Assembly (NCBI GenBank): GCA_030280995.1
Contig: JASXTE010000005.1
Span: forward strand, 27,071,501-27,135,500
Source: Hemileia vastatrix
Taxonomy: Eukaryota > Basidiomycota > Pucciniomycetes > Pucciniales > Zaghouaniaceae
Direction of reading: 5' to 3'
DNA length: 64,000 nt
Each line of letters opens with the position of its first letter. Position 1 is the first letter of the stretch. Below, one piece after another: positions 19,445 to 63,668 of the stretch. Under the pieces are notes generated by a model. The model saw nothing but the letters and a program-made list of their open reading frames with translations, was not told the origin of the DNA and ran no database searches. The position numbers and the translations under genes are program-made.

Positions 19445-20756
19445 TTAAAAGGGTGGCAAAGAGAAACTTTGGAGAGTAATAGGCATAATGACAGAGCATA
19501 TGCTGGTTGAATGAATGTTTTGTGATTCAAGGGAGGGGAGAGCCAAGGCTGGTTCAGGATCCTCTTCTTCATAAAGATCATTCCACTCATTCTTTAAATC
19601 AGCTAGGATATTGTGGAGTATAAAGCAAGTCATTATCCAATGATTTGCAGTTTTGATTTCCATTTTTTTTTGAAATTGGATTCTGAGCTCCCAGAGACTA
19701 GAAAATCTTCACTATAAAATCCCAATAGCATGTTCAATCTGTACTCTTTTTGGGCAAGATGATAATTAAAGGTGGTTTTGGGGTCATTTTCTATAGTTGC
19801 GCCACAGAAAGCAAGTATAATGTACTTTCCACTTGCATATGATGAGTCTGCAAGGAGGTACTGAGATTCATCAAAGTATGAGTCAGGAGTGTGAGAAATC
19901 CTCATTCTTTGGAAGATGGAAGAGTCAAGACATGAGCTGGGGAAGCCACTATGAAAAGCAATAAATTTTTTATTGACATCACATACAAGTTGAGCAGCAA
20001 TAGAGTATCTAGAAAGAAGATAAAAAGTCAGTTTATGATAGATGTGAAATTGGAGAACATTTTGAAGAAAACTTTTTTTGCAATCAAAATAATGGCTGCC
20101 ATCATAAGCAGGCTTTTGACTCAAAGGTAAAGTTGTGCCATCAACAAATCCTACACATCCAGGGAAACCTTCAGCTTGAATTACTTGAGACGAATCAAGT
20201 TGCTGTTGTGGAGTTGGCCAAGCAAGTGTTTGAGACTTGAGAGAAAGGATAGCAATCATACTGTTCTTGTTGTATAATATCACTGTCCCATATACTATGG
20301 TAAAGAGATTTTCCAAACGTCTTACAGCAGCACCATTTACATTTGAGCCAAAGCGACATAGTGCAACAGCAAGTTGAATAGCAGAATCATGATGTTTATT
20401 TTGAGAATTGTTATGAAATATAGGATGTTTGGAGATGAGTTGATAAAGTTTGAAGAAAGAATCTGGAGAAGTTTAAAATATTTGAGTGAAGTTTAGTTGA
20501 GGAATGTTGAGAATGGAGCAGAAATCATATCTGGGATCATGATGAAGATTTGGCCCCCTTGGGTTTATGTAACACTTTTTGGAAAGAAAAGACATATGGC
20601 TAAAGCATCTTCCAAATCAGAGTCTGTTTTATAGTAAAGAACTAAAAGTAAAGCAATAGCATTCATAGTTGAGTGAAGTAGCTGCCTAGTAGAGAGGTGT
20701 TTCATAGTTGTTGGTGGAAGACTTATGTGATGAGAAAAGTAGGAATTCACTGCCAA
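19445..20756 (-). pseudogene. PIF/Harbinger-type DDE transposase, copy 2
   Basis: Reading leftward from ATG 20756. The N-terminal part shifts frame near 20565, and a second long frame covers 20316-19633. It keeps the first catalytic Asp (GFVDGTTLPLSQKP) and the second (LLADSSYASGKYII). The region of the Glu is frameshifted (AQKEYRLNMLLGF for the AQSRVRIEHAIGI of copy 1). The C-terminal domain (HNILADLKNEWNDLYEEE) lies in a third frame, 19663-19445. The decay here is mainly by indels, unlike copy 1, where it is mainly C-to-T nonsense changes. Confidence 0.8.
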
Positions 20757-31767: not shown

Positions 31768-31817
31768 TGAGTACATTGGAGAGCTTTCCCTGGCTCTGCA
31801 AGGCATCATTCTCTACA

Positions 31818-32232
31818 GATATCACTGATGTGGATATCCAGCATGAGTTAGGGATATTTTAGGGAAGGACATAAGGTCAGAAAAATAAATGTAAGAAAAT
31901 TAAGTGCGAGAAAAATAAGTGTGAGACAAGCAAGTGTAAGAAAAATGATTTTTTTTTAAAAAAAAATATTTGTGAAAAAATAGAAAAAAATAAAAAATGA
32001 AATAAAAAATCTTTTTTTAGGAGAAAAAAAAATTAAAAAACAAAATTTACCATGGTTGCAAGATATTTTTCTTACACTTATTTTTCACACTTTTTTTTGG
32101 ACATATTTTACTTACACAAATTTTTCTTGCACATATTTTTCTTACACATATTTTTCTATTATGTCCCTCCCTACATTATCCCCAACTCGCGCTGGATATC
32201 CCCATCAGGGATATCTTACTTGGTGCGTAGTG
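31818..32232. mobile_element. MITE family D, left end degraded
   Basis: The right end is intact (GATATCTTACTTGGTGCGTAGTG region, ending 32232). The left end aligns from GATATCACTGATG at 31818 but lacks the outermost 17 bp. Subterminal AAGTGTAAGAAAA-like words repeat in both orientations. The complete relative is at 37764-38204. Confidence 0.7.
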
Positions 32233-32332: not shown

Positions 32333-32622
32333 TGTTGAAGGAGACTGGTTGTTAGGCACTAATGTTCTTGAGTATTCTACACGTGCTTAACACAATGATT
32401 GATTTATACTGAGTATTGATTTAAGACGTGATCAGTTAGTCAGGGTGTATAATGATAATATGAGATTATATATAGTAAAAGCATTACACTGTATACTTTG
32501 TTTATTAGAACTGACATTAGTATGTCTATTAGGTGATTGAATACGTTACAGTCAACGGGGTTTTACTATAACTGACAAATCTCTTTATAATAACTTAAAG
32601 GTGATTTGAATTGGTCTCAATA
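32333..32622 (+). repeat. 5' LTR of copia 1 (short form)
   Basis: Starts TGTTGAAGGAGACTGG and ends TTGGTCTCAATA. A TATA box (TATATATAG) lies at 32467-32475. It holds one 68-bp cassette at 32533-32600 bounded by AG|GT on both sides (TTAG|GTGATTGAATACG ... CTTAAAG|GTGATTTG). The downstream primer-binding site was not identified with confidence. Confidence 0.9.
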
Positions 32623-32646
32623 GATTAAAAGTCTGAAGATCTTTTC

Positions 32647-35600
32647 ATGAGCTCTCCGAGTGAAGATATACCTGATACATCTTCTGCTACTTCTGATAAT
32701 ACCTCGTCAACATCAACCTTTCGACCAGCGGCTGAAACTAGTACCTCATCTAATCCTACACGTCCCTACATCTCTTTGACTATGTCAGATCAGTCAAATG
32801 ACAAACTATTGAGAGTACCGGTTCTCACCTCCGGGAATGTTTCTCTTTGGAAATCCATGATTGAGTTCTACTTTGACTCTCATGATCTAACTCATCACAT
32901 AACTTGTGCTGCCAAGCCCAGTGATGCTGATTCTAATGACTGGCGAAAGGGTGAAGCTAAATCTCGGTTAATCCTAATCAACGCTGTTGGACCAAGGGAT
33001 TCATTACTGATCTCAAAGGCTAAATCCACTTATCTTGCCTATCAAAAAATTCTTTCTGATTATGGTGAGGGCAATGCCTCTACGGTCTCTGATCTGTTGG
33101 ATCAGCTTGTTTATTTGAAATGGGATGGAGCTTCATCTCTTAGGGAGCATTTGGGCAAATTTGAACAGATAGAAAACTTGTTGGTAAACAGTGCATCCAG
33201 TGACCCGGAGCTGTCTATTCCCTCCAAAGTGGTGGCTATGATTCTTGCTAAAAGTGTTCAACACGAGACGATGTTAGGAATCACTCAAAACCTTTTTCAG
33301 AATTTTAAGAATTTAACACTAGAGCAAGTTTACGATAGTCTCAAATCAGAGGCAAATCGCAGGTTGCGTGATGAAAACTCTAGTGATAACGCACTAAAAG
33401 CTCAGGCAAAAAAGAAAAAAACTACTCATCACTCTCATTCACCTGATAAAAAGGACAAGAAGAATATCAAGTGCAAACTAGGACATGTCGGTCACAGTGA
33501 CGAGAATTGTATCACTCAACTACGTGAGGAGTTAAAAAAATTAAAAGTCACGTCGCACTCTAAAAACGAGAAGGCCAAACCTGCTGAGGAAGTTACTGAA
33601 TCAGCTTCATTAGTTGTTGAACACGAGCATGAAGAATCAGCATATCTAGCTGGAACAAAAAATTTGAACACTCGTTTTGTCTTAGATTCAGGAGCGACTT
33701 CGCATATGGTTCAGAATAAGGGAGTGCTTTCTAATCTTAAAAATCTTATCCCTCCAGTTAAAATTGATACTGCCGGAACCGAAGTTTTGATTGCGAATTA
33801 TTCTGGTGACTTGGTTATTAATCGAAAATTGGTTCTGCATGATGTCTTAGCCATAGATGGAATTTCTGCCAACTTAATCTCAGTCAATAAGTTGAATCGT
33901 CTAGGTTATAGTATTGTTTTTGATCCTGTTGAAACAAAAGTCCTTAACTCAAGTGGACAGCTTGTTGCCAGGCTTAATCATAAAGGTCAAAAACAAAACT
34001 TGTGGTATGTCACGAATAAGGCTCTATTGTCGAGTGAATAGAGTCTGACACTGTTTCAATGGCATCAACGTTTAGGGCATCTGAATAATAAATCTACCAG
34101 AAGGTTTCTCACTGAAAAGGGTATTGATTTTGTTGATGAAAGATATGAGTGTGTTACATGCCTGAAAGGAAAAATGGTGAAATTACCCTTCCTATCGTCC
34201 TTTCCACTGGCAACTGCACCTCTCTTTCGTATTCATTCGGATGTTATGGGGCCTATTGAACCACCTAGTATTGGGGGTCATAGATATGTAGTTACATTCA
34301 TAGATGACTGCACACGATATTCGACTGTTTTTCTTATGAAATGCAAATCAGAAGTTTTCTCTAAGTTTCTTATTTATCAGGCTGATGTTGAAAATAAGTT
34401 GGAGCGTAAAATTAAATTTTTGAAATGTGACAGGGGAGGAGAGTATGGTGCTGGAAAATTTATTGATCATTTGAATAAATGTGGGATCACTCGAGAACAG
34501 GCACCAGCCAGGACACCTCAACACAACTCTGTTGCTGAGCGATTCAACAAGACTCTCATGGATAGAGTTTGTACTATTATGATAGACTCTGCATGCCCGG
34601 CTCCACTCTGGGGAGAGTGTGTTATAAGTAGTGTATATCTGTTGAATTTGCTCCCACATTCCAAACTCAAGTCAAGGACGCCACAGGATGTCTTAAATGA
34701 TTTTCTTCCAAGTGAAGGTAATCATTCAGTTGACTACTCATTTCTTCGAAGATTTGGTTCCCTTGCCATTCGACACAGTGCCAAGGAAGATCGCCCTCAT
34801 AAATTTCAGCCTCGGGGTATCGAATGTGCAATTGTTGGTTATGAACCCAACTCTAAAAGTTATCGGCTGTATGATTCAATAAAAAGAAAAATTATTGTTT
34901 CACGTAATGTGAAAATTCTTGAATCACAAAATTATTTTAGTGAACCAAATGTTTCCATTAAGGTACCTGATTATGTACTTCTACCGACTTCCTCTAACAC
35001 TATCATTAACTCACCTGCACAAACTGAATCATCTTCACAAGTGGCTCTCTTACCACTGTCATCTTCAGATACCTCAATTCACACCTCTGTCCCAGGTGAG
35101 GAATTGGCAGTATTAGATAATGATCATGTAGAGGGCACACAAAGGAAGAGTCAACGACTTAAACTTACCCTCCAACGTCAAACATCTGAACCAACCGAAA
35201 GTGAAAATCCTCTAGTACCTGTACCAGATGACTCTGAGGCTAGTAACTCGTCTACCTCTGAAAATCTCTCACATCATGGCAGACCAGTGAGACAACACAA
35301 TCCACCAGCTTACTATGGTTATTTTGCCAGCCATACATCAGATACTCCTACATATAAGCAGGCGATGAATAGTCCGGAAGCTGAATTATGGCGTGAGGCT
35401 ATGGATAAAGAATTTGATTCTTTATGCGAGCATCAGGTTGGCGAGTTGGTAAATAAGACAAAGGACATGAAGGTCATTGGAGGTATTTGGGTCTTGTCTA
35501 AAAAAAGGGATGAACTCGGTAGAGTAATCAGATTTAAGGCACGATGGGTTGCTTTGGGAAATCTTCAAAAAGAGGGTATAGACTATGGAGAGACATATGC

Positions 35601-36942
35601 TTCTGTAGGACGTACGGAGACGTTTAGGCTTCTCATGTCCCTTGCCGCTGCTAGAAACTGGTTTATTTCACAATTTGATGTATCAACTGCCTTTCTTCAT
35701 GGCATAATGAAAGACGATGTTTATGTTACACAAGTAAAAGGCTATGAAATAGGTGGTAAGCATAAGGTTTGGAAGTTAAAAAAATCACTCTATGGCACTT
35801 GTCAAGCACCTCGACAGTGGAAGGAAAAGTTTGTTGAAGTCATGACAAAATTATATTTTACGGAGGCCAAAGGAGATGAATCACTGTTTATTTATCAAAA
35901 TAAGAAAGTATTTCTTTTTGTTCATCTCCATGTGGATGACGGACTGGTTTTCTCAAATTGTGCTAAAACCATAAACCAATTTCATACTGATTTACAGGTG
36001 CATTTCAAGGTTAAATGGACTGATAGCCCAACTTATCATTTGGGTATCAAAATTTCATATCTTGATGATTACATCACATTAACTCAGGAGTCTTATGTTA
36101 ATGAGTTGGCTAGACGTTTTGATTTGTCTGATTGTAAGAAGCTATCCACACCGCTTCCAGTAAATTGTCATCTGGTCGATCCATCACCTGAGGAGACTGA
36201 AGCCGGTAAGGAGGATCCTTATCAGGAGCTTATTGGCTCTTTGAATTATCTAGCTGTTTCAACAAGACCAGATATTAGTCAAGCCCTTAATACTCTATCT
36301 AAATACAACTCAAATCACTCACCCTATCACTGGAAGCTTGCTCAGAAACTCTTACAGTATGTAATTACGAATCAGACAACTGGGATCAGGTATCTACGAA
36401 ATACGAGTAATGTTGATTTTGAGGCCTATAGTGACTCTGATTATGCTAATTGCAAGGCCACTAGATGTTCAGTAACTGGCTTTGTGATCATGCTCAATGG
36501 GAGTCCGATATCCTGGCGAAGTAGACGGCAAAAAGTGGTAACTCTTTCGGTTACTGAAGCTGAATACATTGCTATGTGTGAATGCGCAAAATCTCTTGTC
36601 TGGCTCTCAAAAATTTTTTTCTCTCTCAACATTGATATGGTCACCCCACAACTTCTTAGCCGAATAAATGAGCCAGATCTATTTTGTGATAATAGTGGGG
36701 CCATCTTCTTGTCTAAGGAAGCTCAAATCAATGAGCGCTCAAAACATATAGATGTTCGTTATCATTGGCTGCGACAGAAAGTTAAACGTAATGAAATAAG
36801 AATTGTCTATTGTTCCACTATGGACATGCTGGCCGATATGTTCACCAAACAACAACCACAAATTCGTTTTGATAGTGATAAACAGCGTTTAAATCTAATC
36901 ATGTCTGAAGCAGGGGGGGTGTTGAAGGAGACTGGTTGTTAG
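32647..36942 (+). CDS. Copia 1 Gag-Pol polyprotein with one internal amber codon
   Basis: Codons 1-464 (32647-34038) hold Gag, a damaged zinc knuckle and the protease (LDSGATSHM, Asp near nt 33685). TAG follows at 34039-34041. The same frame then continues without a break to 36942: the GAG-pre-integrase motif FQWHQRLGHL, integrase with D-D-E visible (FIDDCTRY, KCDRGGEYG, NSVAERFNKT), reverse transcriptase with HVDDGLVF in place of the usual YVDD context (35932-35940) and RNase H (YSDSDYANC, then YHWLRQKVKR). The knuckle reads CKLGHVGHSDENC, missing the second Cys of CX2CX4HX4C. The full product would be about 1,431 residues if the TAG is read through. The frame extends 23 bp into the 3' LTR. 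Confidence 0.85.
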
Positions 36943-37516
36943 GCACTAATGTTCTTGAGTATTCTACACGTGCTTAACACAATGATTGATTTATACTGAG
37001 TATTGATTTAAGACGTGATCAGTTAGTCAGGGTGTATAATGATAATATGAGATTATATATAGTAAAAGCATTACACTGTATACTTTGTTTATTAGAACTG
37101 ACATTAGTATGTCTATTAGGTGATTGAATACGTTACAGTCAACGGGGTTTTACTATAACTGACAAATCTCTTTATAATAACTTAAAGGTATTGTTTTATT
37201 ACTAAAACTGTTTAATCACATTTTGCAATCCAATCTTATATTTTTCCATTTACGAAAACTGATTGATCATTTTTTATATTTTCTTATCTTTAACTTACTA
37301 TATTGATATTTGTGTTAAAACCCGTTTAACTATTTAATCTATCAATCACTTGGGACAGGTGATTGAATACGTTACAGTCAACGGGGTTTTACTATAACTG
37401 ACAAATCTCTTTATAATAACTTAAAGGTGATTGAATACGTTACAGTCAACGGGGTTTTACTATAACTGACAAATCTCTTTATAATAACTTAAAGGTGATT
37501 TGAATTGGTCTCAATA
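36920..37516 (+). repeat. 3' LTR of copia 1 (long form with cassettes)
   Basis: Identical to the 5' LTR outside an extra 307 bp (37188-37494). The order is cassette 37120-37187, an intron-like 171 bp (37188-37358, GTATTG...GGGACAG), cassette 37359-37426, cassette 37427-37494, then the common tail. All cassettes are 68 bp and every junction is AG|GT. Confidence 0.9.
37188..37358 (+). other. Intron-like segment in the 3' LTR of copia 1
   Basis: Begins GTATTG, ends TTGGGACAG and has a TTTAAC branch-like word upstream of the acceptor. It lies between two copies of the 68-bp cassette and is absent from the 5' LTR. Splicing is inferred from sequence only. Confidence 0.6.
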
Positions 37517-37712: not shown

Positions 37713-38269
37713 CACCCTGAAAAAAAGTTGGCACCTGCTGGCAGGTGCGACCCCCCAATTAAACACTACGCACCAAGTAAGATATCCCTGATGGGGATAT
37801 CCAGCGCGAGTTGGGGATATTGTAGGGAGGGACATAAGGATAGAAAAATATGTGCAAGGAAAATATGTGTAAAGAAAATATGTGAGAAAAATAAGTGTAA
37901 TAAAAATATCTTGCAACCATGGAAAATTTTGTTTTTTGTTTTTTATTTTTTATTTATTTTTTCTCAAAAAAAGGATTTTTTTTCATTTTTTCTGTTGTTT
38001 ATTTTATTTTCTGTCTTTTTACCTTTTTTTTTTTTTTTTTTTGAAAAAAAAAAACCCCTCATGGTCGCAAATGATTTTCTTACACTTACTTTTTTTGCAC
38101 TTAACTTTTCTTACATTTATTTTTCTGACCTAAAGTCCCTTACTAAAATATCCCCCACTCGGACTGGATATCCCCATCAGGGATATCTTGCTTGGTGCGT
38201 AGTGAAACTACCATAGTCTAGTCAAGGATAGGAACCTGCTAGCAGGTGCCAGGTTTTTTTTTTCTGGTG
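37713..38269. mobile_element. Small MITE (family E) split by MITE D
   Basis: The left part (from CACCCTGAAAAAAAG, with palindrome 37731-37748, GCACCTGCTGGCAGGTGC) and the right part (palindrome core ACCTGCTAGCAGGT at 38234-38247, then TTTTTCTGGTG) form an inverted pair around MITE D. Without MITE D it would be about 113 bp. Flanks are TCT and CCT, so the duplication is not exact. Confidence 0.5.
37764..38204. mobile_element. 441-bp CACTA-type MITE (family D), duplication AAA
   Basis: Both ends start CACTACGCACCAAGTAAGAT (one base differs at the right end) and are flanked by AAA (37761-37763, 38205-38207). A GATATCCC/GGGATATC hairpin sits just inside each end (37781-37801, 38167-38187). The interior is AT-rich with TAAGAAAA-type subterminal words and no coding capacity. 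Confidence 0.85.
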
Positions 38270-38720: not shown

Positions 38721-39608
38721 TGTTAGTATATACATAATATTCTAATTCATACTTATTATTATAATCTTTTTTGCATTACTTGTCCCGAAGTGGACTGATA
38801 CTAACTGTATGTAGAAGAGAGAGAAGTGTATTGTGCTAGCGTGAGAAGTTGTAGTTATGGTATATATAGCTATCAAGTGTTCATCTATTACCATATCTTT
38901 TGTCTTCTTTTGCTCATCATCTCATCTCATCTCTCTACACGTACTCACTTGAATATACAGGTGTGTACCATTACTATCATAAGTTGATTTTTACATTTAA
39001 TTGTTATTGTTATAGGTTAGCGCATTACTATCAGCGATTTCAGCTTCATCCACAGTGTTACTAGAGGAGAAGACTTACGCTAGATTAAAGGTGTGCTCTA
39101 ACTGTAGTTTCCTATTGTTACTATTATATTCATACTCCACTATGTTTGTAGGTTAGCACAACACTGTTCTCTTGTGATCCATATTATTTACGAGTAGATC
39201 TCATATCATACAGGTGTGCTTATCTTTGCAATTAAATATCTTTTGTCTTCTTTTGCTCATCATCTCATCTCATCTCTCTACACGTACTCACTTGAATATA
39301 CAGGTTAGCGCATTACTATCAGCGATTTCAGCTTCATCCACAGTGTTACTAGAGGAGAAGACTTACGCTAGATTAAAGGTTAGCACAACACTGTTCTCTT
39401 GTGATCCATATTATTTACGAGTAGATCTCATATCATACAGGTTAGCGCATTACTATCAGCGATTTCAGCTTCATCCACAGTGTTACTAGAGGAGAAGACT
39501 TACGCTAGATTAAAGGTTAGCGCATTACTATCAGCGATTTCAGCTTCATCCACAGTGTTACTAGAGGAGAAGACTTACGCTAGATTAAAGGCTTTTATTA
39601 TTCTTTCA
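38721..39608 (+). repeat. 5' LTR of copia 2 with a GT...AG cassette array
   Basis: Starts TGTTAGTATATACATAAT and ends TTATTATTCTTTCA. From the presumed start site: leader exon 38893-38960; intron-like 38961-39015; exon A 39016-39090; intron-like 39091-39151; exon B 39152-39213; a 22-bp intron start 39214-39235; a second copy of the leader 39236-39303; A 39304-39378; B 39379-39440; A 39441-39515; A 39516-39590; tail. The second leader-A-B block is exactly the first with both introns removed. Confidence 0.9.
38861..38868 (+). promoter_or_regulatory. TATA box of the copia 2 LTR
   Basis: TATATATA lies 32 bp upstream of 38893, where the duplicated leader copy also begins. The spacing is right for a TATA-directed start, so 38893 is the likely 5' end of the transcript. 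The 3' LTR copy of the box is at 43927-43934. Confidence 0.65.
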
Positions 39609-39666
39609 CATTATCAGTACCAGCTCACGTACTTAAGCACAAACAACAACTAGTAACACTAGTAAC

Positions 39667-40527
39667 ATGGACAACAATAGCATCCGTGAATTAATCTCTG
39701 CACTTGAAAACAAAAATGACACAAAACTCGGAAGTGACAATTACTTTACCTGGGCTGCTCACATGGAAGGTCTTCTCTTCGAAAATGAACTGTGGGAAGT
39801 AACCGAAAACGAGTTTATAATAACAACTACTGAAAAAGAAGATGGGACAACAATCACGTCTCCAAGTGCAAATGAGATCAAGAAGCGCCTTAAGACAAAC
39901 ATGAAAGCGTATTCAATGATTCTTCGACATCTTGACCATGAAAACACGATGCTAATTTGCGACAGTCCAGAGCTAAAAGGAGATCCATACAAAACATGGA
40001 TGAAACTGAAAGAGAAACATGCTGAAGTAAATCAATTCACTAAAGCCGCTGCCTACAAATCATTAAATGATCTGACTTACACTACGGATCTCAAAACCTT
40101 TATTAACGATATCCGAAAAGTCCTACGAAATTTGAGAAATGCTAAAATCAGCTATGAAGGCGACACTGTAGCTACTCAAATAATTATGAAATTACCTGAT
40201 CAATATCAAACCACAGCTCAAAATATCCTGGCTTCTGGAAAGGTAACCATGATGAATGTCCTGGCAGTACTCGAACAGACTAGCAAATTTCACAATCTTC
40301 AGGACAACCAATCGAACGAATCTAAGACTAGCAAAGCCCTTATTGCCGACTCAAGTAAAACTGAAACGTCGAAGTCCAGAGAAAGAAAACCGCGAAAGAA
40401 ATGCACGTACTGTAATAAAACAGGACATCTTGAAAGCGAATGCTGGGAGAAGGTTGGAAAACCAAGCTGGGTCGAACAACGCGATCAATGGAAGAAAGAG
40501 ATGGCTGAGAAGAATAAAAAAAACTAA
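39667..40527 (+). CDS. gag: Copia 2 Gag
   Basis: The frame encodes 286 residues. The N-terminal part is a typical copia Gag (NYFTWAAHMEGLLFENELWE, then a helical region up to about residue 215), followed by a Lys/Ser-rich linker and one zinc knuckle CTYCNKTGHLESEC (CX2CX4HX4C, about nt 40402-40443). It forms the virus-like particle and binds RNA. The frame ends TAATGA just after a run of eight A, and Pol continues in the +1 frame. ATG 39667 is the first ATG after the LTR cassettes and the presumed primer-binding region. Confidence 0.9.
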   Translation: MDNNSIRELISALENKNDTKLGSDNYFTWAAHMEGLLFENELWEVTENEFIITTTEKEDGTTITSPSANEIKKRLKTNMKAYSMILRHLDHENTMLICDSPELKGDPYKTWMKLKEKHAEVNQFTKAAAYKSLNDLTYTTDLKTFINDIRKVLRNLRNAKISYEGDTVATQIIMKLPDQYQTTAQNILASGKVTMMNVLAVLEQTSKFHNLQDNQSNESKTSKALIADSSKTETSKSRERKPRKKCTYCNKTGHLESECWEKVGKPSWVEQRDQWKKEMAEKNKKN

Positions 40528-43500
40528 TGAGTCAGCTATGATGGCGTACAATCAGTATGTTCTTATCTCTTCTATCGACAACAACACCAACCTGAAACCA
40601 ATCCTTGATTCAGGAGCCACGTCAACGATGATTAGAAACCGAAAGTACTTCTGGACATATCAGAGTACTAAGTTCGATATTGTGACTGGAAATGAAAACA
40701 CAGAATGTGTTGGAAAGGGAACTGTTAAATTGGTTGAAGGGAAAAATGTTGTGACTCTTAATGCACTACATGTACCTAAATTACCGTATGATCTTGTGGC
40801 AACTATTGAGTTTTGGAGAAAAAATTATCAAGTTGAATTTGCTAAGAATCCCGAAAGATGCATCATCAGTAATAAAAATCTTAAATTCAATGCAGATATC
40901 GAGAACAATCTTTGCAAAATGCGTGGAAACTTCAAACCAGCTGAGTCCGCACTGATTTGCTCTGTAAAAATGTGGCATGATAGACTGGGACATCCAAACT
41001 CGAAGTATACAAAGTCAACTGTTGGTGAGACGTTGGACGACAGTCAGTTCTTCTGTGAAATCTGCGAAATGACAAAAGCGAAGAAACTACCATTTCAAGG
41101 ACATTTTCCAACACCAAAGAAACCTCTGGAAGTGATCCACACCGATCTTAGTGGCAGAATCAATCCACCAACCAACAGTGGCTATGAGTACTATATGAAG
41201 ATCACAGATGGATTAACTTCAACTCGTGCAGTATACCTGTTAAAAAACAAAGATGAGGCACTATCTAAATTAACGGAATTTAAGACAAAATATGAAAATA
41301 TCTGTGAATCAAAAATTAAGACTATTGTAACAGATGGAGGAGGAGAATACTGCTCGAATAAATTTGAAACATACCTTAAAGACAATGGTATTTTCCATCA
41401 AATCACTGCGCCTTATACACCTGAGCAGAACCCAATCAGCGAGCGAGGAAATCGAATCACCACCGAGAAAGCTCGAGCGATGCTGTTCCAATCAGGGCTA
41501 CCACTTAGCTATTGGGGAGAAGCAGTAATAACAGCAGTATATTTGGAAAATCTGATAGTTAGTAAGGCTGCAAATATGATATCACCATATGAAGCACTTA
41601 CCGGCAGAAAACCAAAAATAACACATCTACACCCGTTTGGATGCCTAGCTATTGCCAATATTCCAAAACAACAGAGGAAAAATAAGTTTGCTCCGACAGG
41701 CACCAGATGTGTTCTACTTGGGTATTCTGAAGGAAACAACAACTATAAGTTGATGGAAATTCAAACAAAAAGAATAATCTTCACTCACAACGCCACATTC
41801 AATGAGTCAGTGTTTCCTATGAAAGATTGCAACAGCCCAAAAGAAATGTTCAATATCGTCACCATAAGTCACACAACAGAGACACCAACAAATCAAAATG
41901 TTGAAGATGATGAGGAATTTCATGATGCAGTAGAGGAACAAATAGAAGAACAGTCAGCAGATACTGAAAATCCAGTAACCAGACGACTAATCTTACGCCT
42001 TGGTCCACCGCCACCTGAAAATCAATCAGATCAGTATTCTGGACCCACCCTGAGATCTCATACCAGGAAGGTGATAAATGAACTTGAAGGTACCCACAAT
42101 GCTTTAATAAACTTTGTCGAACAACAAAACACAGATCCTGACAATTACAGAAAGGCAATCAGTGGGTCTCAAAGGTCACACTGGATAAGTGCAATTAAAG
42201 AAGAACTTGACTCACTTCATGAAAATCACGTGTGGTGTATCGTCCCTGCTAATCATCAAAAAACAATACCTACCCGTTGGATCTTCAAAACAAAGTATGA
42301 TGAAAATGGAGTCCTTAACAAATTTAAAGCAAGACTGGTTATCAAAGGCTATCTACAAAGACATGGAATAGACTTCAACGAAACGTTTGCACCTACCGGG
42401 AGACTGGCAACCCTTCGAACGATCTTTGCGCTTGCTGCTATTGAAGGATTACCGATGCATCAACTTGATATAAAGACTGCATTCCTAAACAGTAATCTTG
42501 ACGAAGACATCTTTATTCAACCTCCAGAAGGTTTTACTGAGTGGTTGGATAGATCAAACTTGAACTGTAAAAAGGAGATAGAGCAATTAAATGGTGGTAG
42601 CAGAGTTTTAAAATTAAAAAAAGCACTCTACGGTTTAAAGCAGGCACCTAGAGCCTGGTATCAGGAGGTATCTAAGTGGTTCCATAAACATAAGTTTAAA
42701 ACCAGCAATAGCGATCCCTGTTTATTTATTAGAAAAGATTCAAATGATGACTATTTATATGTGTTTATTTGGGTGGATGACATGGCTATCATTGGACACG
42801 GGGCTCATCAATTTCATGCTGAATTATCGAAGGATTTCAAGGTACATGACTTCACAAAAGCAACTTATCTACTGGGTATACAAATTACTCGACTAAATAG
42901 TACTTCTGTTCAACTACACCAAAGTCAGTACATAGCAGATCTATTAGAAACCTTCGGTATGACAGACTGCAAAATTAATCCTACTCCAATGCAATCAAAT
43001 ATCCAGCTGTTACCCTCTGATGATGACCAATACGCTCAGTTTCTGAAAACAGGAAATGACTATCGAAGTATCATTGGAAGTATTGGCTATCTAGCACAAT
43101 GTACTCGACCGGATATCACCCATGCTGTCAACTATTTATCTCAGTTCCTCATAAAACCAAATCAGTCTCACTGGCAAGCGGCACTCCGAATTCTAAGATA
43201 TCTCAAGGGTACAGCCAATGTTGGCCTACTGTACTCACGAGACTTCAAAACATTAATACCCACGAAAATCAATATTAGCAATCAAGCACCTACAGGTTTC
43301 AGTGATGCGGATTGGGCTGGATGTAATCTAACACGTAGATCAACTAATGGGTATGCCTTTCTGCTCGGTGGAGGTGCTATTTCTTGGAAGAGCAAAAAGC
43401 AAAACACTGTTTCCACATCAGCCACTGAATCTGAGTATAAGGGATATCTTGATGCAGGATTAGAAGGAGTATGGTTGCGAAAACTGCTAAGTGAACTAGG

Positions 43501-43792
43501 GTATGAAAACAATCAAGGAACGTTACTTTATGGAGATAATCAAGGAGCAATAGCATTGTCAAAGAATCCCGTAGCTCACAAACGAACAAAACATATTGAA
43601 GTACATTTCAACTGGGTCAGGGAAAAAGTACTTGATGGCGAATTAAATCTCAAATACTGCTCTACGCACGACATGGTTGCAGACATCATGACAAAAGCAC
43701 TGGATTGTACAAAATTTGAAAAATTTAGAACAGATCTAGGCCTGAATGAATGTCGACGCACTATTGGTTCAAGTAATGAGGTGGAGTGTTAG
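40516..43792 (+). CDS. pol: Copia 2 Pol (protease, integrase, reverse transcriptase, RNase H)
   Basis: The open frame extends back to an ATG at 40256, but coding character in this frame starts near the A8 run at 40516, so I take Pol as a Gag-Pol fusion made by +1 frameshifting or slippage there. Domains in order: protease (LDSGATSTMI at 40604-40633), GAG-pre-integrase (WHDRLGHPN) with CEICEM, integrase (DLSGR, TDGGGEYC, NPISERGNR giving D-D-E), reverse transcriptase (LDIKTAFLN, IWVDDMAII at 42769 on) and RNase H (FSDADWAGC, ATESEYK, HIEVHFNWVREK). About 1,090 residues without internal stops. It ends inside the first bases of the 3' LTR. Confidence 0.9.
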
Positions 43793-44674
43793 TATATACA
43801 TAATATTCTAATTCATACTTATTATTATAATCTTTTTTGCATTACTTGTCCCGAAGTGGACTGATACTAACTGTATGTAGAAGAGAGAGAAGTGTATTGT
43901 GCTAGCGTGAGAAGTTGTAGTTATGGTATATATAGCTATCAAGTGTTCATCTATTACCATATCTTTTGTCTTCTTTTGCTCATCATCTCATCTCATCTCT
44001 CTACACGTACTCACTTGAATATACAGGTGTGTACCATTACTATCATAAGTTGATTTTTACATTTAATTGTTATTGTTATAGGTTAGCGCATTACTATCAG
44101 CGATTTCAGCTTCATCCACAGTGTTACTAGAGGAGAAGACTTACGCTAGATTAAAGGTGTGCTCTAACTGTAGTTTCCTATTGTTACTATTATATTCATA
44201 CTCCACTATGTTTGTAGGTTAGCACAACACTGTTCTCTTGTGATCCATATTATTTACGAGTAGATCTCATATCATACAGGTGTGCTTATCTTTGCAATTA
44301 AATATCTTTTGTCTTCTTTTGCTCATCATCTCATCTCATCTCTCTACACGTACTCACTTGAATATACAGGTTAGCGCATTACTATCAGCGATTTCAGCTT
44401 CATCCACAGTGTTACTAGAGGAGAAGACTTACGCTAGATTAAAGGTTAGCACAACACTGTTCTCTTGTGATCCATATTATTTACGAGTAGATCTCATATC
44501 ATACAGGTTAGCGCATTACTATCAGCGATTTCAGCTTCATCCACAGTGTTACTAGAGGAGAAGACTTACGCTAGATTAAAGGTTAGCGCATTACTATCAG
44601 CGATTTCAGCTTCATCCACAGTGTTACTAGAGGAGAAGACTTACGCTAGATTAAAGGCTTTTATTATTCTTTCA
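43787..44674 (+). repeat. 3' LTR of copia 2
   Basis: Same 888-bp sequence and cassette order as the 5' LTR, offset by 5,066. It follows a purine-rich stretch (AATGAGGTGGAG). Introns correspond to 44027-44081 and 44157-44217, and the spliced leader-A-B block to 44302-44506. Confidence 0.95.
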
Positions 44675-53933: not shown

Positions 53934-53938
53934 AAAAG

Positions 53939-55439
53939 TGTCAGCCTGTATATCTCCAGGACTGAGTAAAAAGTACTTATAAGTTATGTTAAACACATGA
54001 ACTATACATGGGAATAATAAATAAGAGTACACAAATAGTATACATAAGTAAAATTATGATAATACACAAAAAATGCCATTATAACACCTTATATACACGC
54101 ATATATCCACCTTTTATAGGTCTTATGTACTTAATATTAAGTTGGAATATGTTAGGGTAATCTTAAGAACCTTAAGTATAAGGCTGCATAATTTTTAAGT
54201 ACACCTAAAGCTGTTATATTCATTGTTTTATGCAAAAAACAAGAAATGCGCTTTATTTCACTTAAAAGTTGACTATATGCGCTATAAAATTGAGAATATC
54301 AAAATTGCGCTTTGACAGATCAATTGGGCTCATTTAGAACTATTGATTTGGCTATTTAAATGCATAAAAATAACACTTTTCAAATTTGGTGTTTTTTATG
54401 CCAGAAATGGCTTCTGTGTACTGGCCACATACTGCCTGCTTTTTTCCCATGTGAATAGCTTCATTTTTAGCAAAGTTAGCTTTTTCACACTATAATTACC
54501 CCACATTCTATGCCCACTGTGGGGAAATACACTAAAATAGGCGACAGGCGCTTATTTAGTGTCATAGCTTAATTAATAATGCATTGACCCTATTTATATG
54601 CACTAATTTCATTAATAACCTCACTCTTGGCACTTTATTTCATAACCACGCTTAAATTCGCCTAATTTTAGTCAAGGATTTACCCGTGCAAGCGCCTGCC
54701 AAGAACTGCATGTAGTTACCCCACATCTCACGCTCTTTTTTAAGTTTTTGGGTGGTTTCTCAGTCAATTTTGGTTATTTTTGAATGGGAATTTCACGTAG
54801 TATAATGTCAGGATTAGCCCCATTATTTCTACAGTCAATCCCCCTTATTATTAAGCTATTATTAACCTTAAAAAGTCTCCTTTAGTCCTTAATATTATTG
54901 TTTTATACGCATATACTCTCTTTTTGTCTTTTTCTTTAATTTTGATGGATTTCCCTTATTATTTCAGGATTTTGGCGGTTATTACTCTTCTAATTATGTC
55001 ATGGGTCACTGGGAATGTTGATGGGAATGTCTATTAGTTGTTTAGAGGCGTGATTAACTGTGTATTGGGTGGTACATCAAGGGAATCATTGGGGAACTCA
55101 GTGTGTATAAAAGGAGGAGGTTTTTGGGTTGTATTTCTTCATTCTTTATCATTACAATTTAACCAATATAACCAAACCAATTACAATACATATCAATTAG
55201 TACTTTTATAAGACTTTTGAACAGTATCTGAATTTATATAATCTATTTTTCTACCAACTATAAAGATTGTAAGCCATATATAAGAATAGTGAGAATTATA
55301 TTACTGAGACCTCTATATTTGATTATATTTTACAACTTAGTGGATTAAAACTACAGTATTCATATAGGACCATTTAAATCTTCTAGACAACTGACTATTC
55401 AAGCTAGTTCACGTCCTTGTACTTGACCCTAGCCTGACA
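53939..55439 (+). repeat. 5' LTR of the Ty3 element
   Basis: Perfect 6-bp inverted tips (TGTCAG/CTGACA). TATAAAAG at 55106-55113 is a good core promoter. The primer-binding site should start at 55440-55441 (TTGGGGGCC follows directly). The tRNA was not identified. Confidence 0.95.
55106..55113 (+). promoter_or_regulatory. TATA box of the Ty3 LTR
   Basis: TATAAAAG, about 330 bp before the LTR end, gives a transcript start near 55135-55140. The same box in the 3' LTR is at 63330-63337. Confidence 0.55.
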
Positions 55440-56107
55440 ATTGGGGGCCTTTCCTCAAGAATTCTGTTATAATCCTGTAAGTGAAATTTTCAAGAGAAGG
55501 TGCACGTAAATAATATCCCTATAGAAATATTTGGATAATTACAACAGGTTGGGGTCACTTATATAGTGATTTCAGAAAAAGAAGCCCTGTTATATTATAA
55601 AATTGTGATATTGAATCAACAATTTTACCACTAATTTAACTTATAATTGTTATTAGTGGGTCTGTCAATAGACCAATTAAATTTGAGATCTTTGCAGATA
55701 AAATTTTTACCACTAATTTACCATATAATTGTTCTTAGTGGGAGTCTGTCAATAGACCAATTAAATTTGTGATCTTTGCAGATAATAAACCAATTAAACT
55801 GATTAATTGTTTTCTTTTAACAGGACTCTTAATCTTTTCTTTTATTGGTTTGTAAAATTCATTAAATATTGAGAAAGAATCATACTGACAGTTGTTTTCT
55901 TTTGAATATAAAAACACGGCTACATATTGTAGACCAGTTAAATCAAGTGACCACATAAAAGCATATTTGACTTTTGGCACTTAAATATTCACTTCATACC
56001 AATAAGTAAGCAATAAAATTGTCTTCAGTGGTATTGATAAATACTGATAAAACTCCTTTTTGAAGTTTTCATATCTAAACTTTCAATTCTTTAAATTCCA
56101 CGTAAAA
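55440..56107 (+). other. Leader of the Ty3 element with an 82-bp direct duplication
   Basis: Untranslated leader. Two diverged copies begin ACCACTAATTTA at 55627 and 55709 and contain CAATAGACCAATTAAATTTG and ATCTTTGCAGATAA. No gene was recognised, and an antisense frame at 55735-55980 has no motif. Confidence 0.6.
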
Positions 56108-59100
56108 ATGTGTGACAACAATGACATTGTAAGTAATAAGGTAAAACCTTATAACTTAAGACCTAGAGCTGAAAGACCTGTTACAGGACATTCAAATGGA
56201 GGGCCAGGACTCTCCCATAATCAACAACACTCCGTCAATGTCTCTGGAGGAAAGGGAAAAGCTTTTAAAGCAGGTTTCAATAAAGAAAACAAAAAATACT
56301 TTACAAAAACAAGTTCACTCCCTATCCACCCTACTGAACACCTTGACAATAAGAGTCAAAAATATAGTGGACCAGATCAACAATCTGGAAAAGAGAGCAG
56401 CTCAAGGTTTCATAGAGGTCAACCAAGCTCTAGTGGACATAAAGACTCAACCACCAACAGTGGCACCCAACAATTCCATAGCAACACCTCCAGCCCAAGA
56501 GGAGGACCAAAAAATTACAGTAAGCAAATGGAAATGGGATTGGTACACCCAAAACTACAACAATCCTCAACAGCAGGGCTCCAGCAGTCACCCTTACAGG
56601 GAAAAGGCAAGGAGAGGCAGGGGAAGTGGGATAAGACCTTGGTAAGTCATCCAACTTCTTATGATCAATTATATCAACCTGAAAATAAATTACTTATAGG
56701 TAATGAGATTGATAAGGAAATATTGGATATTATTGATAAGGATTTAAAGAATTATTCATTTGAACAGAATATGTTAAACTTGTCTTTACATGAGGACAAA
56801 GTAAATAGTTTTATTGACCACCAGGAAAATACTATTAATATAAAAATGGAATCAAATGAATTAAATCTTGACCCTGAAAATGAGTCTTCTGAATTGGACA
56901 CGGGAAAAATAGAATATTTTTTAAAAGAGAATCCAATGGAATCAAAAATAATAAGTAAATTATTATTAAGAATTGAAAAATTGGAAGAGTTCTCAAAAGA
57001 GTCAAACATTAATACAGAAAATGTATTATTACATCTAACACAATCATTGAGTACCACAGCCAATAAATTAAAAATTATTGAAAATTCAAATAATGAATTA
57101 ATCAATGAGAATAAAAGATTAAAATCTGAGATTAGAAATTTAGAAAGTAAATTAGAACACTCTCAGAATATTATGGCTACCATAGAGGGACGTGTAAAAT
57201 TGTCTTTTTCAAATGTAAATGATACTTTGACTCAAGTACCTGTAATAAAAGATAGGTTACAAAGAGTAGAAATTGAAGTAGCTAACATTTTGAAAAATAC
57301 TGAAACAATAAAGGATAATACCTCTTATGTAGAAAGAGTACCAGTTTTTATGAAACACTCTGAGGATAAACCAATGATGGAACATGAACATAGTGTCATG
57401 GGCTCTGAGAATATAAAATCAGTAAAAGATGAAATAAATGATCATCTTTCTAAAGTAAGTGAATTAATCAATATTCCTCAGGTTAGGGAAGCAAAAACTA
57501 GCCAAAAGAACTGGCCTAAGTTAGATCAGTACCCTTCTTTTGACGGGGATTCAAAATCTGATTGGCAACAATTCATACAAAGAATTGATAACCTAAAATT
57601 TTCATACAAATTACCTGATGAAGAAATTACTTCAAAGTTAATATCTTTATTTACAGATGTGGCCTTATTATGGTTTGAATCTGTATTGAGTGAGGGAATT
57701 AATTACTCCTGGAATGAATGGAAGGCACTAATTGAAAGGCAATTTGGTGGCCCAAAATTTAGAATCACTCAACAAAGACTGTATGAAAGGGCCAGATATA
57801 ATCCAAATGCTGGAGATAAACCCATGGTCTTCTTAATGAATTTAATAAAAATCATGAAAGCTATGGATCCAAAAATGGATTATGAAGAGTGGAAAGAAAA
57901 AATAATATACAAGTTGCCTATATCAGTTAGAGACATTATTGTTGCTAGAACTGAAACTGTCAGAGACACCTCTGGATTCATTAATATATGCAATGAGATA
58001 TTATTAAACCACAAATATGAAACCAAGTATAGTAATTACAGACAAAGTGTTGACGTGGTAAAACCTACTACAAGTAAGTTACCAGTGGAAAAGAAAAAAC
58101 CTTCAGCTCCCCTTGTCCCTAAGAGACAAGAAAATAACACTTGTTACAAATGTAATGAACCTTGGGTTAAAGGTCACACGTGTAAGAAAAGAATAAATGT
58201 TATTGAAACCTCACAGAATTCTGAACCTAGTAATCATGAAGATGAGAATGTGGAATCCAGTGAGGATTGCAAGAGTAACATATCTTACAGTGATGATGAA
58301 AATGAGATATTTGTCTTAGAACAGGATATAATGTTCCTGAATGATGCTATACCTCATACAGACACATCTTTAACTTCTATAGAGGAAGCTGAAATAATTA
58401 AAGATGTATCTCATGATACTTACAAAATAACACCTATCAGAGCACCTATTATCATATGTGGAAAAGAAATGAATGCCATTCTTGACACTGGGGCTGCAGG
58501 TAGTGTAGTTTCACTTAATGCATTAATGAAACTTGATAGTAAGTACCAGGAAAAACTAGAACCTGTTCAGACAAAGAACTGGAGGGGTTTTGGTTCAGTA
58601 TTAAATCCAATTGGCAAATACAAAACTGCTGTATTCTTTAAATATAATAATGGATATGTTAGAGCAGTTTGTGAATTTGTAGTAATGGATAATAATAATT
58701 GTAGTGATTGGTTTATTATTGGCAATGATTTATTGACAAAATTTGGCATTAAACTAGATCCTGCAAACAGTTGTTTCACCATAGGGGTGAATGGTAAAAG
58801 AAAATTCAAAATATGTTCTGAAAATTCAGTATATACCATTTCTCCTAGAGAAGAACAACTGCAAGGTGGAAGAACCACCAATGAAGTGGGTGAATTGGAA
58901 AATGAAATCCAAAAGGCCTCTTTCAGTCCTCAACTCTCAAAAATTGAACAAGAAGATATTTTGAGATTGATTAAATCATATCCTATGGCATTTGCTCATG
59001 GCTCAAATGAACTAGGATTGGTCAAAGACCATGAGATGAAAATCTCTTTAAGCTGTGATCTGGATAATATTCCTGGCAGTTTAAAAAAGAAACCTTACCC

Positions 59101-60430
59101 AGCATCTCCTGCAAAAAGGAAAGATATTGAAGACAATATAAAATTGTTGTTGGAAATGGGTATTGTTGAAAAAGTGGACACAACACCTAAGTATTGTGTC
59201 ATTTCACAAGTATTAATCTCTTATGAAAAAGATAAGGCAAGATTATGCGGTGATTATAGAGCTCTGAATACATATACAGTAGATGATATTTACCCTCTAC
59301 CAAGGATAGCTTCTATCCATGCTACCTTACAAGGAGCAAAATATATTTCCTGTCTGGATGGGAACAAGGGTTACCACCAGATTCCTGTGGAAAGAAATTC
59401 TCAAAATTACTTATTAATAACCACACATATGGGTATATATAAGTATGTGAGAATGCCATTTGGCCCAAAGAATGCCCCTTCAGTCTTCCAAAAATTGATG
59501 GATAGTGTTTTTCATCAGGAAATGGTTGAAGGATGGTTATTGGTCTATATTGATGACATCATAGTGTTTTCAAAGACATATGATGAACATTTAAATCACC
59601 TGAAAAGAGTCTTTCAAAAAATGGATGAAATTAATATGACTATTGCATTAAAGAAATGTAAGTTTGGATTTCAATCCTTGAAAGTACTTGGACATGTTGT
59701 ATCTGGATTACAAATTTGTGTTGACCAGAATAAAGTGGCAGCAATTAAAAACATTGGGATACCTAAAAATGTAAAAGAGGTTCAAAGTTTTTTGGGTATG
59801 TGTGGATATTATAGACAATATATTAAAAATTACCAATCCATTACAGCCCCTTTGACAACATTAATCAGGAAGAATGAAGCTTTCATTTGGAATAATGAAA
59901 GACAACACGCCTTTAATAAATTAAAGGAATGTTTAATGTCAGCTCCAATAGTAGGACTTCCAGATTTCACCCTACCTTTTATCTTGTACACTGATGCAAG
60001 TTTCATAGGTTTGGGTGCTGCTTTACAGCAGAAACAGATAATAAATGGAAAATTATCTGAAGTAGTTATCTGTTATATATCCAGAACCTTAAGAAAAACA
60101 GAATTAAGGTATGGTGCCACACAGCTAGAATGTTTAGCCGTGGTGTGGGATTTGGAGAAACTTCATTACTATCTGGAAGACCAGAAGTTTGAACTTATAA
60201 CAGATTGCAGTGCAGTAAAATCATTACTAAACATGAAAACACCTAATAGGCACATGTTTAGATGGCAACTAGCTGTACAAGAGTACAGAGGAAGAATGAC
60301 AATCACTCACAGAGCAGGAACATTGCATTCAAATGTGGATTTATTATCCAGAAGTCCTTTGCCAAATGATGCTGACACCCAGCTTATGTACCTGAAAATG
60401 AGGTTATACATATATTTGGGATTTATATAG
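56060..60430 (+). CDS. Ty3 Gag, protease, reverse transcriptase and RNase H
   Basis: The open frame has 1,456 codons. Translation more likely starts at the second Met, ATG 56108 (MCDNNDIVSN). Order: a low-complexity N-terminus, coiled-coil Gag (about residues 295-420), the Ty3 Gag core (SWNEWKALIERQFG), a zinc knuckle of CX2CX7HXC form (CYKCNEPWVKGHTC), aspartic protease (ILDTGAAGSVVS, Asp at residue 809), reverse transcriptase (YIDDIIVFS, residue 1163 on) and RNase H (LYTDASFIGLGAAL). The last dozen codons look out of frame: the -1 frame reads PENEVIHIFGIYIVDLEEEF into the integrase. The frame changes within about 60375-60385, next to ACACCC. Confidence 0.9.
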   Translation: MKFSYLNFQFFKFHVKMCDNNDIVSNKVKPYNLRPRAERPVTGHSNGGPGLSHNQQHSVNVSGGKGKAFKAGFNKENKKYFTKTSSLPIHPTEHLDNKSQKYSGPDQQSGKESSSRFHRGQPSSSGHKDSTTNSGTQQFHSNTSSPRGGPKNYSKQMEMGLVHPKLQQSSTAGLQQSPLQGKGKERQGKWDKTLVSHPTSYDQLYQPENKLLIGNEIDKEILDIIDKDLKNYSFEQNMLNLSLHEDKVNSFIDHQENTINIKMESNELNLDPENESSELDTGKIEYFLKENPMESKIISKLLLRIEKLEEFSKESNINTENVLLHLTQSLSTTANKLKIIENSNNELINENKRLKSEIRNLESKLEHSQNIMATIEGRVKLSFSNVNDTLTQVPVIKDRLQRVEIEVANILKNTETIKDNTSYVERVPVFMKHSEDKPMMEHEHSVMGSENIKSVKDEINDHLSKVSELINIPQVREAKTSQKNWPKLDQYPSFDGDSKSDWQQFIQRIDNLKFSYKLPDEEITSKLISLFTDVALLWFESVLSEGINYSWNEWKALIERQFGGPKFRITQQRLYERARYNPNAGDKPMVFLMNLIKIMKAMDPKMDYEEWKEKIIYKLPISVRDIIVARTETVRDTSGFINICNEILLNHKYETKYSNYRQSVDVVKPTTSKLPVEKKKPSAPLVPKRQENNTCYKCNEPWVKGHTCKKRINVIETSQNSEPSNHEDENVESSEDCKSNISYSDDENEIFVLEQDIMFLNDAIPHTDTSLTSIEEAEIIKDVSHDTYKITPIRAPIIICGKEMNAILDTGAAGSVVSLNALMKLDSKYQEKLEPVQTKNWRGFGSVLNPIGKYKTAVFFKYNNGYVRAVCEFVVMDNNNCSDWFIIGNDLLTKFGIKLDPANSCFTIGVNGKRKFKICSENSVYTISPREEQLQGGRTTNEVGELENEIQKASFSPQLSKIEQEDILRLIKSYPMAFAHGSNELGLVKDHEMKISLSCDLDNIPGSLKKKPYPASPAKRKDIEDNIKLLLEMGIVEKVDTTPKYCVISQVLISYEKDKARLCGDYRALNTYTVDDIYPLPRIASIHATLQGAKYISCLDGNKGYHQIPVERNSQNYLLITTHMGIYKYVRMPFGPKNAPSVFQKLMDSVFHQEMVEGWLLVYIDDIIVFSKTYDEHLNHLKRVFQKMDEINMTIALKKCKFGFQSLKVLGHVVSGLQICVDQNKVAAIKNIGIPKNVKEVQSFLGMCGYYRQYIKNYQSITAPLTTLIRKNEAFIWNNERQHAFNKLKECLMSAPIVGLPDFTLPFILYTDASFIGLGAALQQKQIINGKLSEVVICYISRTLRKTELRYGATQLECLAVVWDLEKLHYYLEDQKFELITDCSAVKSLLNMKTPNRHMFRWQLAVQEYRGRMTITHRAGTLHSNVDLLSRSPLPNDADTQLMYLKMRLYIYLGFI

Positions 60431-61980
60431 TGGATTTAGAAGAAGAGTTTATGAAAACTATATTGGAAAATTATTCATCTGATAAAGATTTGTCTAAACT
60501 ATCTACCATTCTTAATGATCCAACAAATGCCTCCATGAGTGCATTAATTAAAACCTTGCCTCCAAAGTATAAAAATGCGTTGGAAAAAGGTAAACTATCA
60601 ATTGAAGATGGATATATATATTACAGGAAAATGTTAAGCAATGTAATAGTAATACCACCTTCTATGAAAGAGTTAATGTTGAGTACTTGTCATGATGACA
60701 TCTTAGCTGGTCATTTTGACTTTAACAAAACATTAACCAGAGTTAAAAATACAGCCTGGTGGATAAACATGAAAGAGGATGTACAAAAATACATTGAAAC
60801 ATGTGACTCTTGTCAGAAATCTAAAAGATTAACTGGGAAGAGAGCTGGGTTGTTACAACAAATAGAGCAGCCAAAAGCTCCATGGGAAATTATAAACATG
60901 GATTTTGTAACTGGCTTGCCATTAGCAGGAAAAGAAAGTTTCAATTCTTGCTGGGTAATAGTGGATAGATTAACAAAAATGTGTAAGTTTATCCCTACCC
61001 ATAAAGAGGTATCTGCAAAAGACTTGGCATTACTATGGTGGACACAGATGATGAATACTGCTGGGTTCCCCAAAGCCATAATCTCTGACAGAGATCCTAA
61101 ATTTACTTCAGAGTTCTGGACATCTTTGATGGAAGTATCAGGTTGTCAATTAAAATTGTCTACAGCACACCATCCACAAACTGATGGGCTGGCTGAGAGA
61201 ATGATACAAACTCTAGAAGACATGATCAGAAGATATTGTGCCTTTGGATTAGAATACAAAGACAATGAGAAATTCACACATGACTGGGTAAAATTAATTC
61301 CTGGCCTTGAATTTGCTTATAACAGCACAACTCATTCTGTAACAGAGAAGAAACCATTTGAACTCTGGCTGGGATATGTACCAAATACCCCAGTAAATCA
61401 TTTAAATAAACTACCAAGGTTGGATATACACCCTGGCACTAAATCCTTTATTCATATGCAACAAATGTGTAGAAAGCATGTGGAAGAATGCATCCAAAAA
61501 GCATTTGAATATAAAAAGAAAAGGTGGGACAAATCTCATAAAGAATTTGAATTTAAAAAGGGAGATGAAGTCCTCATATCAACACTACATTTTAACTTAC
61601 AAGGTAATGTTAAATTAAAGGATCCCTTTGTAGGACCTTTTGTAGTAAATAAAATGGTTGGGAATAATGCAGTGGAAGTCATATTATATGCTCCATATGA
61701 TAGGAAACATCCAGTTTTCCCTATCTCATTATTGAAACCTTACCATGCAAATGATCCTGACTTATTTCCAAAAAGAAGGGGAAGGCCTAAAAAGCAACCT
61801 GAAGAAATTGTGGAAAAAGCAGAGATTGAAAAAATACTCAAGAAAAGAATCCTTACTAAAGAAAAAGGAACTGAGTATTTACTAAGATTTAAAGGGAAAT
61901 CAAATGAATTTGATAAATGGATACCTGAAAAAGAAATTTCTAATTTATCCACCCTTCTTAAAAAATTTAAACAGAAATAA
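60430..61980 (+). CDS. Ty3 integrase with C-terminal chromodomain
   Basis: No ATG starts this frame (GTG at 60430), so it is probably made as part of Gag-Pol in the -1 frame of the upstream gene. The zinc-binding segment has His in HDDILAGHF and Cys in CDSCQKSK. The catalytic core shows Asp in MDFVTGLP, Asp in ISDRDPKF and Glu in DGLAERMIQTLED. A GPF/Y-type motif (DPFVGPFVV) follows, then a basic linker. The last 55 residues form a chromodomain (EIEKILKKRI, EYLLRFKGKSNEFDKWIPE). Chromodomains of chromoviruses steer integration to marked chromatin. The stop at 61978-61980 is intact. Confidence 0.9.
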   Translation: MDLEEEFMKTILENYSSDKDLSKLSTILNDPTNASMSALIKTLPPKYKNALEKGKLSIEDGYIYYRKMLSNVIVIPPSMKELMLSTCHDDILAGHFDFNKTLTRVKNTAWWINMKEDVQKYIETCDSCQKSKRLTGKRAGLLQQIEQPKAPWEIINMDFVTGLPLAGKESFNSCWVIVDRLTKMCKFIPTHKEVSAKDLALLWWTQMMNTAGFPKAIISDRDPKFTSEFWTSLMEVSGCQLKLSTAHHPQTDGLAERMIQTLEDMIRRYCAFGLEYKDNEKFTHDWVKLIPGLEFAYNSTTHSVTEKKPFELWLGYVPNTPVNHLNKLPRLDIHPGTKSFIHMQQMCRKHVEECIQKAFEYKKKRWDKSHKEFEFKKGDEVLISTLHFNLQGNVKLKDPFVGPFVVNKMVGNNAVEVILYAPYDRKHPVFPISLLKPYHANDPDLFPKRRGRPKKQPEEIVEKAEIEKILKKRILTKEKGTEYLLRFKGKSNEFDKWIPEKEISNLSTLLKKFKQK

Positions 61981-62162
61981 ATTTCTGTTCAACCAGCTGA
62001 GGGGTTAAAAAACCAGTACTCATAATATTTTATTATGTTTTATTTCTTTAAAGTTGAATCTTTAATGCTACAGATTTATTCTGAATACCTGAAAATTACA
62101 AATTAAATAAAATACAATGTATGACTTATCATTTTTTTTATTGTTTTTTTTGGGTGGGCGAG

Positions 62163-63663: not shown

Positions 63664-63668
63664 AAAAG

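Follow-up and report, generated by a model that had tools for sequence, protein, structure and literature searches.

A copia LTR in a rust fungus that carries its leader with and, directly behind it, without two putative introns

How can a long terminal repeat (LTR) come to hold a leader interrupted by intron-like pieces and, next to it, the same leader with those pieces gone? An LTR should lose its introns when spliced RNA is used for the first strand transfer, and both forms side by side in one LTR would mean that spliced and unspliced templates had been combined. The question is raised by a retrotransposon, here E1, in the window, by which we mean the whole stretch of 64,000 bases that was analysed. 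Its parts are:

38721-44674, E1, a Ty1/copia LTR retrotransposon
38721..39608, + strand, 5' LTR of E1, 888 bp, TG...CA, identical to 43787-44674, with the target duplication AAGGT on both sides of the element
39667..40527, + strand, gag reading frame (Retrotran_gag_2, E 5e-18)
40256..43792, + strand, pol reading frame, integrase (rve) before reverse transcriptase (RVT_2)
43787..44674, + strand, 3' LTR of E1, carrying the array of the 5' LTR unchanged at an offset of +5066

Within pol, rve spans 288-389 and RVT_2 658-913, which is the copia order; this order, the copia-type gag (Retrotran_gag_2) and an LTR pair with a short target duplication place E1 in Ty1/copia. The two LTRs agree at 888/888 positions and the element is flanked by a 5-bp target duplication, which indicates a recent insertion. 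In the present copy gag and pol are out of register (39667-43792), and a near-identical, uninterrupted protein of 1374 aa from a public assembly (P0001) matches E1 gag-pol. Among the matches listed for E1 pol (best 120 of 304), the 16 organism-named entries above P0040 were all from Puccinia or Austropuccinia. No confirmed relatives of E1 or E2, a second element described below, were found in viral_contigs with E1 pol, a ten-relative alignment and E2 pol, or in genome_contigs with E1 pol. A 25-base piece of exon A had zero matches in viral_contigs and genome_contigs, a 91-aa frame of the LTR gave 3 candidates, none reaching E <= 10, and Rfam and tRNA scans returned nothing, including no tRNA within the 64-kb window.

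From left to right the E1 LTR consists of U3, then L-i1-A-i2-B-22 bp, then L-A-B-A-A-tail, where L, A and B denote putative exons and i1 and i2 candidate introns:

38861..38868, + strand, TATA box TATATATA, by motif
38893..38960, + strand, L, first copy of the leader exon, 68 bp, its left edge the probable transcription start
38961..39015, + strand, i1, putative intron, 55 nt, GTGTGT...TATAG, 49% T, exactly missing from the second copy
39016..39090, + strand, exon A, first copy, 75 nt
39091..39151, + strand, i2, putative intron, 61 nt, GTGTGC...TGTAG, 46% T, exactly missing from the second copy
39152..39213, + strand, exon B, first copy, 62 nt
39214..39235, + strand, 22-bp piece starting GTGTGC, possibly the start of a third intron truncated by the 3' terminus of the RNA (R border)
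39236..39440, + strand, intron-less L-A-B, 205 bp, equal to the exons of the first copy
39441..39590, + strand, two further A units (39441-39515 and 39516-39590), both identical to A
39591..39608, + strand, tail of the E1 LTR, 18 bp, directly adjoined by the primer-binding region and the leader to gag

The first-pass annotation had described a leader-intron-A-intron-B block followed, after 22 bp, by leader-A-B with both GT...AG introns exactly removed and then by two more A units, and this description holds letter for letter. The second L-A-B is identical to the exons of the first copy at 205/205 bases, and the introns are missing exactly in 2/2 cases, with i1 and i2 both absent to the base. 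The left edge that it had assigned to the duplicated leader, 38893, was also confirmed; it lies 32 bp past the first T of TATATATA (TATA at 38861), and the bases to the left of the two L copies diverge at once, at the 22 bp/L joint. The reading of 39236-39440 as a processed, intron-less copy is well supported and is the simplest, because one event would cover two GT...AG losses, full identity and an edge at TATA+32. By reading, there is no poly(A) run at the 22 bp/L joint, and the 22-bp piece ends AATTAA. Because the joint lacks an A run, the L-A-B copy is taken to work like a retrocopy without being filed as an inserted one, and a plain LINE-like retrocopy insertion, considered as a candidate, was thought less likely.

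The arrangement has a partial counterpart in a second element nearby:

32333-37516, E2, second copia element, target duplication ATATT, 1.2 kb upstream of E1
32333..32622, + strand, 5' LTR of E2, 290 bp, X-C-tail
36920..37516, + strand, 3' LTR of E2, 597 bp, X-C-j1-C-C-tail
37188..37358, + strand, j1, putative intron of the E2 3' LTR, 171 nt, GTATTG...GACAG, 46% T

E2 pol is 31% identical to E1 pol over the compared parts, the comparison by which E2 is classed. The common parts of the E2 LTRs are identical, and their 307-bp difference in length is made up of j1 and two C units (C = 68 bp). The diagnostic feature of E2 is the placement of j1 exactly between C units; no duplicated leader occurs in its LTRs. 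Because C is repeated, the short 5' LTR is explained equally by recombination between C units or by splicing. As this distant element, with different sequence, also shows modules around a GT...AG piece, the AG/GT-module pattern is not confined to one element. Repeats are difficult to assemble and the E2 LTRs are unequal in length, but the full E1 array is identical at two sites 5 kb apart, and an assembly error within the repeat array is hardly credible.

The sequence that directly follows the E2 5' LTR (32623-32640, GATTAAAAGTCTGA) looks like a complement of the tRNA-Lys(UUU) anticodon stem-loop; if so, E2 would be primed by a half-tRNA, as copia is. E2 has inverted and direct repeats on either side (31817-32232 and 37764-38204), including 74 nt that are 99% complementary between 32159-32232 and 37764-37837, as if the element had inserted into or next to foldback elements. 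A third LTR element was available for comparison:

53937-63664, E3, Ty3-like by eye, 1504-bp terminal repeats, 99.3% identical

LTR variation of the E1/E2 type is absent from E3, whose 1504-bp terminal repeats align gap-free. An 84-bp tandem repeat lies ahead of the E3 gag (55623-55785).

Do i1, i2 and j1 look like introns? All three have GT...AG borders and end in TAG, TAG and CAG, respectively, and their T fractions (i1 0.49, i2 0.46, j1 0.46) exceed those of A (0.28), B (0.35) and C (0.34), but L reaches 0.43. Introns of the host are represented in the window by one gene:

1761-3170, host gene at the left window end, with three short introns by placement and relatives in rust and other fungi

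Its matches include Melampsora (50%, rank 1), Cronartium (42%, rank 2) and Phakopsora (47%, rank 4) among 68; with the E1 pol matches given above, they identify the host as a rust fungus. The three introns, placed using relatives, have T fractions of 0.45, 0.34 and 0.34 and lengths of 119, 98 and 70, and the host exons have a T fraction of 0.31. T content is thus compatible with introns yet indecisive, because L is T-rich and two of the three host introns are less so. By eye, i2 has no strong branch-point consensus, and the 22-bp piece after B provides a third donor-like start, GTGTGC. From 38893 up to the beginning of gag, the sole ATG sits in i2. Depletion of upstream ATGs was tried as a sign of an mRNA leader and dropped: on unique exon sequence it is not significant (shuffle P 0.099; 59/1275 background windows are ATG-free too), and the P = 0.0005 obtained for the whole leader counts repeated modules.

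The borders of the modules can be set against chance. The first-pass annotation had every junction at AG/GT; this is correct for 9/11 borders in E1, the exceptions being 22 bp/L and A/tail (AG/GC). AGGT occurs nine times in the R-U5 of E1 and five times in the E2 3' LTR, in each case only at module borders. When 200,000 random gaps per length were drawn within the window, placement as GT...AG was possible for 0.40% at 55 bp, 0.49% at 61 bp and 0.53% at 171 bp, so that i1, i2 and j1 would jointly do so by chance about once in ten million, a product that assumes independence. Gaps between repeat copies, aligned with the split that gave the fewest mismatches, fitted GT...AG in 15/15 rows from E1/E2 and 0/6 elsewhere in the window (21 rows), where the 15 comprise 7 distinct gaps per E1 LTR (the same 7 in both) and 1 in E2 and are non-independent through shared borders, and the 6 controls include three within one array and come from older, more diverged repeats (77-97% identical). 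A cruder version with one-sided overlap trimming (22 rows) gave 5/15 in E1/E2 and 0/7 elsewhere; one control row (gap at 9541) was dropped in the refined analysis.

The same borders bear on an account without splicing, in which the arrays were built by recombination at the DNA level only, whether by slippage, by unequal exchange or by a template switch where short stretches of AGGT are shared. Each of the gaps left by i1, i2 and j1 can be shifted along AGGT, giving 5 equivalent placements of which one is GT...AG, and therefore a 4-bp microhomology fits them too. On this account the tandem A units, the tandem C units and the 307 bp by which the E2 LTRs differ would be simple gains or losses of repeats. 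Nor is AGGT by itself special to E1/E2: in a control of 19 tandem arrays (period at least 40, 3 overlapping rows dropped), three of them E1/E2, it was present on the + strand in 7/16 of the others (1-4 each), counted irrespective of borders. Yet the account requires the same 4-mer, which occurs 202 times in the 64,000 bases of the window, at nine borders in E1 and five in E2, and leaves the copy edge at TATA+32 without a reason. We regard it as unlikely.

The leader might instead have been duplicated as DNA first, with i1 and i2 inserted later into the upstream copy in the manner of introners, and j1 likewise in E2. AG/GT proto-splice borders do flank each piece, as this order of events would have it. 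It calls for one duplication and two insertions with zero substitutions in 205 bp, however, and the introner hallmark of many near-identical introns is missing from the 64-kb window, which holds no copies of i1, i2 and j1 beyond the paired E1 LTR; matches among the three are short, up to 15 nt. In a related route, set out in PMC4974935, introns are gained through duplication of an AGGT-bounded segment, and it is the duplicated part of the exon that becomes the new intron. E1 resembles that model, as given there, in its AGGT borders and tandem units. It differs from it in that i1, i2 and j1 share only matches of 8-14 nt with exons (A/i1 11 nt, A/i2 8 nt, C/j1 12 and 14 nt). Later insertion of the introns into a duplicated leader is distinctly improbable.

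A further possibility is that the whole array consists of GT...AG cassettes strung together as recursive or tandem introns, whose excised lariats were reverse-spliced into AG/GT junctions and then made permanent by the reverse transcriptase that the element encodes. The units i1, A, i2, B, 22 bp+L (90 nt) and C can indeed all be read as GT...AG pieces of 55-90 nt. Acceptor sites follow the consensus YAG, however, and A and C end in AAAG, a poor acceptor; moreover, L lacks an initial GT and its copy begins at TATA+32. We consider a cassette chain very doubtful.

On balance we favour the reading that the E1 array is a reverse-transcribed spliced leader joined behind an unspliced R, and that this probably took several rounds. 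The R region of E1 would contain introns, and a leader transcribed from about 38893 would be spliced from L-i1-A-i2-B... to L-A-B.... During reverse transcription its cDNA would not have replaced the unspliced R at the 3' end of the RNA but would have been attached behind it, and the LTR would have grown by a second leader copy lacking introns. Splicing of i1 and i2, the start at 38893, a poly(A) site at 39231-39235, the type of jump and the number of rounds are what we infer from the layout of the array. The first-pass proposal of a spliced strong-stop cDNA joined end-to-end survives in part: an intron-less copy is the simplest reading and the 22 bp/L joint fits, but a single jump leaves the B/A and A/A joints unexplained. 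These joints suggest that the process was repeated in more than one round. The B/A joint corresponds to loss of 39214-39303, where the 22 bp and the second L together form a GT...AG stretch of 90 nt; it is therefore probable that splicing had acted on an array already carrying a downstream L.

Three rounds behind R might have run from L-A-tail through L-A-A-tail to L-A-B-A-A-tail, and in the rounds after the first, homology of the second L may have been used in place of a new jump. A symbolic model of the array starts from a plain ancestor whose third intron was longer, allows fully spliced leaders only, and reaches the observed order in three rounds with i1, i2 and the 22-bp piece (GTGTGY) alone as donors. 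With A and B as donors it offers an alternative three-round path (L-A-B-tail, L-A-B-A-B-tail). Because the model seems to permit any order of A and B given enough rounds, it serves as a consistency check, not as proof.

We compared this arrangement with known systems. The leaders of HIV-2/SIV and HTLV/BLV have a splice donor or an intron in R/U5, and in this placement within the R region they resemble E1. Unlike E1, to our knowledge, none of these viruses has added a spliced copy of R to its LTR. In the literature searched (open-licence papers, judged from titles and abstract starts), we found no LTR in which the element's leader stands both unspliced and spliced, in agreement with the first-pass remark that no described LTR of this build was known to it. 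LTR retrotransposons with introns are known, among them Ogre and EVADE as presented in parts of PMC12786077. They are like E1 in being LTR elements with spliced RNA, which for E1 is predicted; the introns of Ogre and EVADE serve subgenomic RNAs, by the same partial account (PMC12786077), whereas those proposed for E1 lie in the LTR with an intron-less copy adjoining. In dinoflagellates, repeated RNA processing and reverse copying leave several relic copies of the spliced leader, according to the portion of PMC6050394 that covers them. Those leaders are trans-spliced, 22 nt long and placed before retrogenes (same portion of PMC6050394), whereas the E1 modules belong to an LTR and would be spliced in cis.

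If the favoured reading is true, it describes a route for LTR growth, and for silent elements both start sites and splice forms would become readable from DNA; copies of different ages could reveal the order of events directly. More tentative, and put at slightly less than even odds, is the wider proposal that rust copia elements repeatedly write their own spliced leaders behind the unspliced R, that families do so independently, and that the LTR archives the start site, introns and past splice forms.

Elsewhere in the window, three frames (4510-4989, 14503-15057 and 19633-20316) are mutually similar by eye and, again by eye alone, have the look of transposase pieces.
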